From the IMG/VR virus record IMGVR_UViG_3300046777_000190, positions 1-22,914 of that record: 22,914 nucleotides of DNA. One strand, 5' to 3'. The DNA comes from a virus. The stretch's first letter is position 1. Every line of letters starts with the position of its first letter. Positions 1,729 to 5,054 of the stretch are shown here, piece by piece. The notes beneath the pieces are model-generated. The model did no database searches and was not told the origin of the DNA. It was given only the letters and a program-made list of their open reading frames with translations. Made by a program: the position numbers and the translations under genes.

Positions 1729-2270
1729 AGGTACTGGTAGCTTGTGAGTACAGTGCAACTGTCCGAGAAGCCTTTAAAGCCAAAAGGCACTACGCACTGT
1801 CTTGCGATCTACTGCCTACAGAGATTCCTGGAGAACACTACGAAGGAGATGTACGAGATATCCTGCACGATGGATGGGATCTGATGATCGCGCATCCTCC
1901 TTGCACTCACCTCGCGGTCAGTGGTGCGCGTTGGTTCAAGGATAAGCGAGAGGAACAAAAGGAAGCTCTTGCGTTCGTACAAGAGTTGCTGGATGCACCA
2001 ATCCCAAGGATTGCACTGGAGAATCCCATCTCCATCATCTCCTCCAAGATACGCAAGCCGGATCAGATCATACAGCCTTGGATGTTCGGACACGGAGAGA
2101 CTAAGGCAACCTGTCTCTGGCTGAAGAACTTGCCTGACCTTGTTCCTACGAATATCGTGGATGGCAGGGAGGCTAGGGTACACAAGATGGCACCTAGCCC
2201 TGATCGTTGGAAAGAGAGATCCCGAACCTTTACCGGAGTAGCTCAAGCAATGGCAGAACAGTGGGGTTAA
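1725..2270 (+). CDS. Cytosine-5 DNA methyltransferase-like protein, short form
   Basis: A 181-residue protein of a conserved phage family often annotated as a DNA methyltransferase. It opens with a Rossmann-type motif (KVLVACEYSATVREAF), has an acidic strand end (LSCDLLP), then HPPCTHL at about 57-63 with C60 in the place of the catalytic cysteine of C5 methyltransferase motif IV, and LENP at 98-101 resembling motif VI (ENV). No target-recognition domain is present and the protein is about half the length of ordinary C5 enzymes, so sequence-specific methylation is unproven. I chose GTG 1725 over TTG 1719: it makes a GTGA overlap with the previous stop and lies 8 bases after GAGG (1713-1716), whereas the TTG is too close. 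It could protect phage DNA or modify a nucleotide. Confidence 0.72.
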   Translation: MKVLVACEYSATVREAFKAKRHYALSCDLLPTEIPGEHYEGDVRDILHDGWDLMIAHPPCTHLAVSGARWFKDKREEQKEALAFVQELLDAPIPRIALENPISIISSKIRKPDQIIQPWMFGHGETKATCLWLKNLPDLVPTNIVDGREARVHKMAPSPDRWKERSRTFTGVAQAMAEQWG

Positions 2271-2271
2271 T

Positions 2272-2514
2272 ATGGACGATTCCGAAATCGACTTCAATCT
2301 CAGCGACTATACAGGAGATCGTGTAAATCATCCTAGGCACTACACGCAGCACCCATCTGGAATAGAGTGCATCCAGGTTACGGAGCACTTCAATTTCTGT
2401 GTTGGTAATGCAATCAAATACCTCTGGAGGGCAGGACTGAAGGACGATACAATACAGGATCTACGCAAGGCCATTTGGTACATTGAACGTGAGATTGAAA
2501 GGAGAATAGCATGA
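2272..2514 (+). CDS. DUF3310 family protein (T7 gp1.7-like, putative nucleotide kinase)
   Basis: An 80-residue protein with the DUF3310 signature: NHPRHY at 19-24, a central VTEHFNFCVGNAIKYLWRAG (C-terminal part at 45-55), and a closing amphipathic helix ending in a charged tail. Many phage members are annotated as nucleotide kinases because T7 gp1.7, a much longer relative, phosphorylates thymidine nucleotides; whether this short form has activity is unknown. It starts one base after the methyltransferase stop. Its stop overlaps ATG 2511 as ATGA, which was evidently the original start of the ribonucleotide reductase, so the two nucleotide-metabolism genes were once directly coupled. Confidence 0.85.
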   Translation: MDDSEIDFNLSDYTGDRVNHPRHYTQHPSGIECIQVTEHFNFCVGNAIKYLWRAGLKDDTIQDLRKAIWYIEREIERRIA

Positions 2515-2552
2515 GTGAGTTCCGCAACAGCTTCGGTGTTATTCTTGAGTAA
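2511..2552 (+). pseudogene. Remnant of the original 5' end of the ribonucleotide reductase gene
   Basis: ATG 2511 overlaps the DUF3310 stop (ATGA) and has GGAG at 2501-2504, six bases upstream. It encodes MSEFRNSFGVILE followed by a TAA at 2550-2552. The intact reductase downstream begins MVGTDQNESGEFRNTFGRRVFE, so the first nine codons here match the downstream peptide (EFRNSFG against EFRNTFG) although most codons differ. The best reading is that this was the original reductase start, cut off when the HNH gene entered. It may still be translated, with ribosomes terminating at 2552 and reinitiating on the HNH gene. Confidence 0.7.
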
Positions 2553-3081
2553 AAACAGCAAGAAAATTTGTAGATGCGGAGCCGAGCATTATAGGCAGCA
2601 CAATCTATGCCGAGCTTGCCATGCCTTAATTCAACCCGTACCGAATGGCGGTATTTGCACTAAGTGCGGGAAAGAGCACACAAACAGGCATTCCTGGTGC
2701 AAAGAATGCTTCAGAGAATACGATAGGAGCAGAAGTTCAATTACCAATGAACGAGCAAGAACGAAAAGTAAGAATCCAAAAAGCAGACTGAAGGCAATTC
2801 TTGCCACTAATAGTGTTGATAGGAGTTTGTTATCTTTTGACACCATGTGGAATAGACTTGTTGCCAATGATTTTAGATGTGAAATTACAGGAGAACATTT
2901 TGTCTATGAATCTAGACACCCAAAGTCTATGTCTATTGACAGAATAGATTCTAAACTTCCTTACATTGAGAGTAACGTTAGGTTTGTTTGTCTTTGGGTA
3001 AACCTAGCAATGAGCAACTGGGGCCTTGAAACACTTAAGGAGTTAATCGATGGTTGGTACAGATCAGAACGAAAGTGGTGA
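2515..3081 (+). CDS. HNH homing-type endonuclease inserted at the start of the reductase gene
   Basis: Up to 188 residues, numbered from GTG 2515. Two N-terminal zinc ribbons are visible: C19/C21 with C32/C35, and C48/C51 with C62/C65. An HNH nuclease core follows: C122 in RCEITG, H135 in SRHPKS, IDRID at 141-145, N154 in IESNVRFVC and N163. Zinc ribbons plus an HNH core are typical of freestanding phage homing endonucleases. The start is unsettled. GTG 2515 lies in sequence that is really reductase coding in another frame; GTG 2536 or TTG 2545 (MSKNSKK) may be the true start, coupled to the stop at 2552. Base composition is far poorer in GC than the reductase (42 of 120 bases by hand at 2821-2940), which suggests recent arrival. 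Its last 32 bases overlap the reductase start. Confidence 0.85.
   Translation: MSSATASVLFLSKNSKKICRCGAEHYRQHNLCRACHALIQPVPNGGICTKCGKEHTNRHSWCKECFREYDRSRSSITNERARTKSKNPKSRLKAILATNSVDRSLLSFDTMWNRLVANDFRCEITGEHFVYESRHPKSMSIDRIDSKLPYIESNVRFVCLWVNLAMSNWGLETLKELIDGWYRSERKW
3037..3042 (+). promoter_or_regulatory. Shine-Dalgarno for the ribonucleotide reductase, inside the HNH gene
   Basis: AAGGAG lies seven bases before ATG 3050 and is the strongest ribosome-binding site nearby. It fixes the reductase start. Because it lies in the HNH coding sequence, the inserted gene supplies the initiation signal for the interrupted host gene. Confidence 0.75.
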
Positions 3082-4702
3082 GTTCAGAAATACCTTTGGG
3101 CGTCGCGTTTTTGAGAACAAGTACGCTCTCTTCCCCGACCAGACTTGGGCAGAGAAGTCCAAGGACATCGTGCATGATGTCACTACGAATCTCTTTGCCA
3201 AGGATCACCAAGAGGCACTGGAGAAGTTCATCGCATCGTTCAAGTTTATTCCTGGCGGCCGGTACGTCTATTACGCAGGACGACAAGCTCGCTTCTACAA
3301 TAACTGCTATTTGTTAAAGGGAGAGGAGGATACAAGGGAGGAATGGGGTCGCCTCCTTAAAAGAGCTAGTGATTGCCTGATGTCAGGCGGCGGTATTGGA
3401 GTGGACTACTCTATCTTCCGTCCTCATGGCGCAACTCTGGGCCGCACTGGAGGCCGCGCGAGCGGGCCTATTCCTCTCATGCACTCTATCAACGAAGTCG
3501 GACGAAATGTTATGCAGGGTGGAAGCCGACGCTCTGCGATCTATGCCAGCATCAACTGGCGACACGGGGACGCAGAAGCCTTCCTGAAGGTAAAGAACTG
3601 GAAGGACATGCCTGTGCACGCAGGGTACTCTTTGCATGATGCGAAGAACGACAACTTCAACTTCCCTGCTCCTCTGGACATGACCAACGTATCCCTTAAC
3701 TACGATGACGCATTCTTGGATGCAGTGCAGCAGGGGTACATTCCCTCTGTGTTCGTAGAGAACTGCCGCCAAGCTATGTCATCCGGTGAGCCCGGATTCT
3801 CCTTTAACTTCGGAGACAAAGAGAATGAAACGCTACGTAATGCGTGCACTGAAGTTACTTCTGCTGATGACTCTGATGTGTGCAACCTTGGCTCTATTAA
3901 CATTGGCAGGATTGATACACTACAGGAATTCAGGGAAGTCGTTCGGCTTGCGTCTGGGTTCCTGGTATGCGGAACTATTACGGCGGACCTTCCCTACAAA
4001 AAGGTATACGAGGTTCGCAAGAAGAACCGCCGATTGGGTCTTGGACTCATGGGAATACATGAATGGCTTCTGAAGCGCGGCTACAAGTACGAGATGGTTC
4101 CTGAACTTCGTCAGTGGATGGAGGTGTACCGTGAGGAATCCGAGCGTGCTGCTAATAGTCTTTGTGATAGGCTTAGCATTAGTCGCCCTGTGGCTTACCG
4201 AGCAATTGCACCCACTGGTTCTATTGGCATCCTCGCTGGGACTACAACTGGTATTGAACCTTTATTTGCTGTGGCTTACAAGCGACGATACCTTGTAGAT
4301 GGTACGAAGTGGAAGTACGAGTACGTTGTGGATGCTACTGCGGATGCTCTGATCCGTGAAGGAATCAATCCCGATACCATCGAGACTGCTATTGATCTAG
4401 TTCCCGATTGGGAACGCCGAGTAAGGTTCCAAGCTGATGTCCAGGATTATGTCGATATGTCTATCTCTAGCACCATTAATCTCCCTTCTTGGGGTAGCGA
4501 TCTCAATAACGATGATCGCGTTGGGGAGTTCTCTGGAATTCTGGCTAGGTACGCTCATCGTCTGCGTGGCTTTACTTGCTATCCCGATGGTGCAAGAGGA
4601 GGCCAGCCGTTAGAGGCTGTATCGTACAAGGAAGCCATGAAGCACAAGGGCGTTGTGTACGAAGAGAATGACGCCTGCAAAGGAGGAGTTTGTGGATTGT
4701 AG
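3050..4702 (+). CDS. nrdJ: Adenosylcobalamin-dependent (class II) ribonucleotide reductase
   Basis: A 550-residue reductase that makes deoxyribonucleotides for phage DNA synthesis using coenzyme B12 as radical source. The key parts are present: C86 in FYNNCYLL (first redox cysteine), MSGGGIGVDYS at 111-121, N264-A-C266-T-E268 (active-site Asn, thiyl-radical Cys and Glu), C278 in DVCNLGSINIG (second redox cysteine), APTGSIGILAGTTTGIEP (phosphate-binding region), and a C-terminal C543-x4-C548 pair that re-reduces the active site. The GGGIG segment and lack of a separate radical subunit point to the monomeric class II type (L. leichmannii-like), but it is shorter than that 739-residue enzyme. 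The first ten residues (MVGTDQNESG) are new sequence shared with the HNH gene; homology to the old start resumes at EFRNTFG. No cobalamin riboswitch is seen upstream. Confidence 0.93.
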   Translation: MVGTDQNESGEFRNTFGRRVFENKYALFPDQTWAEKSKDIVHDVTTNLFAKDHQEALEKFIASFKFIPGGRYVYYAGRQARFYNNCYLLKGEEDTREEWGRLLKRASDCLMSGGGIGVDYSIFRPHGATLGRTGGRASGPIPLMHSINEVGRNVMQGGSRRSAIYASINWRHGDAEAFLKVKNWKDMPVHAGYSLHDAKNDNFNFPAPLDMTNVSLNYDDAFLDAVQQGYIPSVFVENCRQAMSSGEPGFSFNFGDKENETLRNACTEVTSADDSDVCNLGSINIGRIDTLQEFREVVRLASGFLVCGTITADLPYKKVYEVRKKNRRLGLGLMGIHEWLLKRGYKYEMVPELRQWMEVYREESERAANSLCDRLSISRPVAYRAIAPTGSIGILAGTTTGIEPLFAVAYKRRYLVDGTKWKYEYVVDATADALIREGINPDTIETAIDLVPDWERRVRFQADVQDYVDMSISSTINLPSWGSDLNNDDRVGEFSGILARYAHRLRGFTCYPDGARGGQPLEAVSYKEAMKHKGVVYEENDACKGGVCGL

Positions 4703-5054
4703 TAAATATCATCCTGATGACCCTAATTCCCCCAAGAATAGGCGTATTCCGTCTTCTTTGGAAGAAGCCTTAAAAAAAGGATATAATTTTTTTGAACATG
4801 TTAAAGAAAACGTGTTATATATTAACGAAGAGCACCAACTCCAATGTCCTCATTGCAAGGAGTACAATATTTTTCCTATCAAAATAGATAATTATGCTGA
4901 TCGTGACAATGTTTACGGTTCTAGGCAATGGTTTGTTTGCGAGTTATGCCAAGGAATAAGCATATTTCAGACAGAGTTTTACAAAGGAAATATATATGTA
5001 GCGATGAATAAGGCTTTTGCCTTTCGACCTTCACCTTCCGTTGAGGTTTCTTGA
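4692..5054 (+). CDS. AT-rich zinc-ribbon protein of unknown function (120 aa)
   Basis: I chose GTG 4692 because AGGAGG at 4681-4686 lies five bases upstream; upstream starts such as ATG 4668 have no such signal. The gene overlaps the reductase by 11 bases. Visible features are an N-terminal polar segment, a SLEEALKKGYNFF helix, then two CxxC pairs, CPHC and CELC, about 33 residues apart, which look like a zinc ribbon. I do not recognise the family. Local sequence is much poorer in GC than the neighbours (42 of 120 bases by hand at 4741-4860), similar to the HNH gene, suggesting separate acquisition. It might regulate reductase or be a mobile accessory gene; neither is shown. Confidence 0.72.
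   Translation: MDCSKYHPDDPNSPKNRRIPSSLEEALKKGYNFFEHVKENVLYINEEHQLQCPHCKEYNIFPIKIDNYADRDNVYGSRQWFVCELCQGISIFQTEFYKGNIYVAMNKAFAFRPSPSVEVS

Follow-up and report, generated by a model that had tools for sequence, protein, structure and literature searches.

This work describes a bacterial virus in which a nuclease gene interrupts the start of a ribonucleotide reductase gene and in which that start has been replaced. The 22,914 bases of DNA analyzed here, referred to as the window, constitute a virus contig in IMG/VR. It carries the gene of an HNH-type, PacI-like nuclease inside the beginning of a class II (B12-type) reductase gene. The original reductase start is retained upstream as a stub of 13 codons, and the complete reductase restarts downstream with a recoded 5' end. 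Comparison with nuclease-free relatives confirms that the interrupted start, with its stub and its replacement, is real. We interpret it as the insertion of a freestanding homing-type nuclease gene at reductase codon 9/10, which brought a changed target start along, and we give this interpretation a probability of roughly 0.6.

Sequence collection and screening

IMG/VR was scanned with the reductase, and 80 loci were collected for each of three queries. The screen for a second copy of the reductase start covered 129 distinct reductase loci, 120 of which had at least 700 bases upstream. Nucleases sharing the motif of the window nuclease were gathered from other phages by motif pattern, resulting in a survey set of approximately 72 proteins.

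An interrupted and replaced reductase start

The region of the window concerned contains the following features:

2272-2514, + strand: DUF3310 gene, the upstream neighbor (Pfam PF11753, E=6e-15)
2500-2504, + strand: AGGAG, Shine-Dalgarno-like site that belonged to the original reductase start and now precedes the stub; identical in L001, L002, L005 and L006
2511-2552, + strand: stub formed by the original reductase start, encoding MSEFRNSFG and then VILE before a stop; equals the empty allele through base 2538
2538-2539, no strand: left junction at native reductase codon 9/10, where blastn alignments to L001-L006 end at 2538; in the base-level alignment the G at 2538 is common to both alleles
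2545-3081, + strand: HNH-type (PacI-like, DRID motif) nuclease gene, 178 aa from TTG 2545 (PHROG, PacI profile, predicted beta-beta-alpha core)
3037-3042, + strand: AAGGAG, new Shine-Dalgarno-like site within the nuclease gene; the new ATG follows after 7 bases
3050-3081, + strand: 32-base overlap between the nuclease 3' end and the new reductase start (MVGTDQNESG), from the ORF coordinates
3050-4702, + strand: full-length class II (B12-type) ribonucleotide reductase, 550 aa (Pfam PF02867, 1.8e-46)
3077-3117, + strand: recoded reductase 5' segment, EFRNTFGRRVFE replacing EFRNSFGENVFK, with 27/41 bases equal to L002; over the 500 bases that follow, 481 are equal

The frame from ATG 2511 reads MSEFRNSFGVILE, that is, 13 codons closed by a TAA at 2550-2552, and its ATG overlaps the DUF3310 stop as ATGA. 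The first-pass annotation had placed this overlap, the MSEFRNSFG stub and the stop at 2552 correctly in every coordinate, as checked against the sequence and its ORFs. It had also noted that the stub and the intact copy (EFRNTFG at residues 11-17) differ at several third codon positions, which they do, with 17/24 DNA bases equal between the stub and the downstream reductase start. The flanking-repeat score of the window is 9.5, which corresponds to the 90th percentile of control ORFs (the 99th percentile is 12.5). The DNA repeat alone is therefore not above chance, and relatives are essential for proving the stub.

Such relatives are available in four IMG/VR contigs (L001, L002, L005 and L006), in all of which the site is empty. 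The window stub ATGAGTGAGTTCCGCAACAGCTTCGGT equals the true start of their uninterrupted reductase (MSEFRNSFGENVF) at 27/27 bases. A chance DNA repeat as the source of the stub is ruled out by these empty-site relatives. Upstream of the stub, the window and L002 are equal at 238/238 bases; the match is lost after base 2538 and regained after 3117, beyond which 481/500 bases are equal. Because the match breaks and returns at these positions, the stub is identified as the old start, codon 9/10 as the point of entry and the codons up to approximately 14 as replaced. The contrast in identity between the recoded segment and the bases beyond it is significant (Fisher p=6e-9). The insert has a GC content of 0.40, versus 0.51 for the reductase. 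Further upstream in the window, a methyltransferase-like gene at 1719-2270 (phrog_757) is missing in L002, the flanks being otherwise 95-100% identical.

The earlier proposal of an old start left as the stub and a replacement start downstream is borne out by the nuclease-free relatives, which open with the ATGA overlap to DUF3310 and with MSEFRNSFG. The continuation into RRVFE that had been predicted for them did not hold, as the uninterrupted relatives read MSEFRNSFG-ENVFKNKY. Since they continue with FG-ENVFK and not with FG-RRVFE, the replaced stretch extends beyond the duplicated part to approximately base 3117, in native codon 14. No uninterrupted relative starting with MVGTDQNESGEFRN, the outcome named beforehand as contradicting the proposal, was seen.

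The downstream reductase has an N-terminal extension compared to its relatives, and ATG 3050 is the sole possible in-frame start at the nuclease 3' end. Its best NCBIfam match is NrdJ_Z (8.3e-62, below the cut-off of that family) and its best PDB match is 1xje, a B12-dependent RNR (1.3e-31). A split two-chain reductase of the Aeh1 mobE type was rejected, as the ORF at 3050-4702 spans the full length of the relatives. Both the old ribosome site AGGAG and ATG 2511 are retained in the window, and a promoter and terminator scan of the + strand over 2200-3400 returned nothing.

The inserted PacI-like nuclease

The nuclease ORF extends over no more than 2515-3081 and probably begins at TTG 2545, which overlaps the stub stop (TTGAGTAA), with GTG 2515 and GTG 2536 as alternatives. 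The protein matches the PHROG families 3322 (endonuclease, 2.9e-14), 1035 (endonuclease VII, 4.1e-11) and 3118 (HNH, 1.1e-9), and its N-terminus is double zinc-ribbon-like. It belongs to a phage protein class of 35 members with the invariant pattern C...DRID...Y...NV...N. Searched against solved structures, the profile of this class matches PacI (E=2.5e-5). Two strands and a helix of the beta-beta-alpha core are predicted at residues 128-159 in the AlphaFold model, whose mean pLDDT is 84. A Foldseek search with this model gave no match at E<=0.001, and Pfam HNH gave no match on the protein. The Pfam families iSTAND and DZR both scored below their cut-offs; the iSTAND hit was taken as spurious.

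The PHROG matches, the PacI profile and the predicted core place the protein in the HNH/beta-beta-alpha-metal superfamily. The canonical catalytic histidine is absent, however, an arginine replacing it in all 35 DRID members, and the nuclease is for this reason termed PacI-like and not canonical HNH. PacI itself also deviates from the canonical active site, with a tyrosine as its proposed catalytic residue. In the window nuclease, the invariant Tyr140 would fit this role. The nuclease sequence does not occur in any of the 80 reductase loci from the first IMG/VR scan, and no close relative was found in the viral contigs, phages or bacterial genomes searched.

A second, independent case

When the 129 distinct reductase loci were screened for a repeated start, L020 emerged as the single true match, and the arrangement is present in only two among these loci plus the window. 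L020 is a second, independent case of a nuclease at the reductase start. Here, a stub (MNEFRNSFGETA and a stop) is followed by a 167-codon ORF from TTG 2684 and by the reductase again from ATG 3180. The ORF sits at reductase codon 11 and its TTG overlaps the TGA of the stub (TTGA); a nuclease TTG start overlapping the stub stop is thus common to the window and L020. The encoded protein is a different one, without BLAST similarity to the window nuclease, and is related to phage HNH endonucleases (40% identity to Citrobacter phage Ursula; PHROG 3118).

A near-isogenic sister with an empty site, L123, matches L020 at 499/500 bases on the left and 495/500 on the right. Compared to L123, the only change in the regenerated L020 start is GGAGAGACG to GGCTCCACA in codons 9-11, at the insertion point, a clustering with a chance probability of approximately 3e-7. 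Within L020, the two start copies agree over an initial 26 bases, their only differences being located at the insertion point. This insertion point lies approximately 4 bases from that of the window. Residue 10 of the reductase is Glu in 78/90 comparable reductases and is lost in both interrupted alleles (Arg, Ser). The independent L020/L123 case makes the reading of an interrupted start stronger than it would be from the window alone.

Related insertions at other gene ends

A third case fits a nuclease inserted at a gene start. At 1999-2600 of L005 and L006, a PacI-like nuclease of the same class as that of the window starts at the ATG of a metallophosphoesterase gene, for which window position 961 is the empty site. 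The phosphoesterase restarts inside the nuclease 3' end with a new ATG and approximately 140 bp of diverged 5' sequence, past which it is approximately 97% identical to the empty allele of the window. The changed tract of L005 is AT-rich (GC 0.376 versus 0.518), which points to foreign DNA. This insertion is equal at 630/630 bases across two samples.

Toward the opposite gene end, L223 carries a nuclease of the class directly behind the reductase, at 3481-4101; this nuclease ends in RGTCGS and a stop. The conserved reductase C-terminus is GGTCGS, whereas the L223 reductase now ends in LRGGGVCGS. These few residues weakly suggest that L223 is a likely 3' mirror image, with a displaced reductase C-terminus. 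In another lineage, a DRID-type nuclease ORF overlaps the reductase 3' end (L142, 4183-4743). A further DRID-type nuclease ORF, at 7018-7692 of L285, is located between perfect 18-base AT-rich direct repeats. Among the approximately 72 nucleases of the motif class, flanking gene-start repeats are rare outside the cases described here and are not the rule.

Two non-nuclease ORFs show a comparable position. In the window, the reductase is followed by a 120-aa ORF with two CxxC pairs (4692-5054, GC 0.355), which separates it from the next gene and is lacking in relatives. The ORF starts at the GTG used by relatives for that next gene, whose restart in the window is ATG 5055. In L007 (620-1100), a 143-aa ORF (phrog_24928) has been inserted at a gene start behind a 12-codon stub (MSDSHFVCDIGG and a stop); the stub stop overlaps the ATG of the inserted ORF, and ATGTCTGAT recurs at the restarted gene. 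As these ORFs also capture starts, start capture is not special to nucleases.

Proposed mechanism and alternative explanations

According to the interpretation that we prefer, the nuclease would cut the reductase of nuclease-free relatives near codons 9-12. During repair, the left break end would be joined to the nuclease gene and the right side would recombine within the reductase at approximately codon 15; both resulting junctions are present in the window, and the insert would in this way carry a changed reductase start. The new 5' end would have arrived together with the nuclease from a donor phage. No donor with the recoded reductase start was found in the viral contigs, phages or bacterial genomes searched, and there was no reductase start among 82 pattern matches from these searches. 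The retained ribosome site and ATG would serve to translate the 13-codon stub, and the overlap of the stub stop with the nuclease TTG may permit a low, coupled translation of the nuclease. Overlapping, weakly started or coupled ORFs are typical of freestanding phage homing genes (PMC2988022). As read directly from the DNA, the nuclease 3' end supplies a ribosome site and ATG from which the intact reductase would be made. The changed codons at the insertion point may render the new allele resistant to the nuclease, and the regenerated start of L020, which is changed only at that point, gives circumstantial support to protection by recoding. The net effect would be a natural 'cut and rescue' cassette, which disrupts the target start and carries a resistant replacement.

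Several points count against this explanation: neither a donor of the new start nor a close relative of the nuclease was found in the collections searched, the DRID class lacks the usual histidine and Foldseek gave no significant match, gene-start repeats are not the rule, non-nuclease ORFs are also inserted at starts, and the arrangement is rare. A broader version is more tentative, and we consider the odds to be somewhat against it. In that version, this nuclease class spreads in the form of compact cut-and-rescue cassettes with a resistant recoded terminus, a stub of the old terminus and the old start signals used for its own coupled, low-level translation, and reductase codons 9-12 are a recurrent, independent target.

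A local duplication could also account for two start copies. The first 27-33 bases or so of the reductase itself would have been copied, and the downstream copy would then have changed under selection against cutting. In L020, where the copies are equal over 26 bases and differ only at the insertion point, local duplication with later cut-site changes is equally possible. The window copy, in contrast, differs at 14/41 sites, mostly silent, compared to 19/500 in the adjoining gene, and the changed tract of L005 is some 140 bp long and AT-rich. In both, the length and silent character of the divergence favor foreign DNA, and we consider local duplication unlikely as the general explanation.

A neutral insertion of cassettes, with a slightly lower probability again, would mean that compact operons accept genes only at starts, that cutting is irrelevant and that the recoded tract reflects ordinary mosaic recombination. 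The non-nuclease ORF at window 4692-5054, which uses the GTG of the next gene, and the one behind the ATGTCTGAT stub in L007 are in line with this. It leaves unexplained why two different nucleases in distant phages have entered one gene at almost identical codons (9/10 and 11), and why the regenerated start has changed at exactly the insertion point in both the window and L020.

Given that the window is a single metagenomic viral contig, an assembly chimera or strain-mixture artefact was considered as well. This is very improbable, as L020 has the same architecture in another sample and lineage, the junctions are clean at the codon level with overlapping start and stop signals, and the L005-type insertion is equal in two samples. 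Least probable of all is a group I intron or intein, with the reductase made by splicing from ATG 2511: phage reductase genes often host such elements (PMC3653736), but Rfam gave no match even at E<=1 across 2300-3300, the ORF fills the 540-base insert and leaves no room for a ribozyme, the stub runs into a stop, the reductase possesses a ribosome site and an ATG of its own as well as a complete N-terminus, and the insertion sites of the window and L020 are some 4 bases apart. A group I intron-encoded endonuclease was rejected on the same Rfam result and filled insert, and the intron that the first-pass annotation had raised as an objection to its own reading was not found across this region.

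Intron-less homing genes must spare essential genes, for which a position between genes is the usual answer. The insertion preferred here would represent a phage alternative, in which the coding sequence is entered at its start and a working, altered start is brought along. Should the altered codons confer resistance, engineered cleave-and-rescue drives would have a natural counterpart here. The presence of a different nuclease at nearly the same spot in L020 suggests that an important gene can be invaded repeatably and without being broken. The L020/L123 and window/L002 pairs are ready substrates for studying cutting, resistance and biased inheritance.

Comparison with known systems

The open literature searched, a set outside which most subscription papers fall, yielded no description of a phage that keeps its old start as a stub and carries a recoded replacement. 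A class of PacI-like HNH nucleases has been named, and in Skunavirus divergence near insertion sites was read as altered nuclease sensitivity (PMC12724721). PacI (PDB 3ldy/3m7k) resembles the window protein in the profile match of its catalytic region (E=2.5e-5) and in the predicted beta-beta-alpha core. PacI is a restriction enzyme, however, whereas the window protein has a different N-terminus and its Foldseek match is not significant.

The freestanding T4-type nucleases mobE, mobC, segF and segG likewise lie beside a nucleotide-metabolism gene (nrd), with overlapping ORFs that suggest coupled translation and with a divergent neighboring target in the carrier (PMC2988022). They are located between intact genes, whereas the insert of the window lies inside the coding sequence of its target and has left the old start as a stub. 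In Aeromonas phage Aeh1, mobE is an intron-free HNH gene within the reductase gene nrdA (PMC2988022, PMC3653736). The Aeh1 NrdA consists of two assembling polypeptides, whereas the window reductase remains a single complete chain whose N-terminus is regenerated.

The closest described cases are the terminus-replacing nuclease insertions of fungal mitochondria, in which nuclease genes displace and replace the 3' ends of atp6, rps3, cox2 and cob; examples are Allomyces atp6, Ophiostoma rps3, Phlebia atp6/cox2 and Endoconidiophora cob/atp6 (PMC4019555, PMC6279837). They have in common with the window a nuclease near a gene end, a displaced terminus and a fused homologous replacement, in several fungal cases without splicing. 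The displaced terminus and its replacement are present in the window as the stub and the recoded start, and are recognized as such through the empty-site relatives. The fungal nucleases are of the LAGLIDADG or GIY-YIG type, whereas that of the window is HNH/PacI-like and encoded by a bacterial virus. In the fungal cases it is the 3' end, encoding the C-terminus, that is displaced and duplicated, a form that only L223 resembles here. In the window it is the 5' end, and the insert must therefore also supply a start codon and a ribosome site. On the preferred interpretation, the insertion in the window is the 5' counterpart of these fungal ones.
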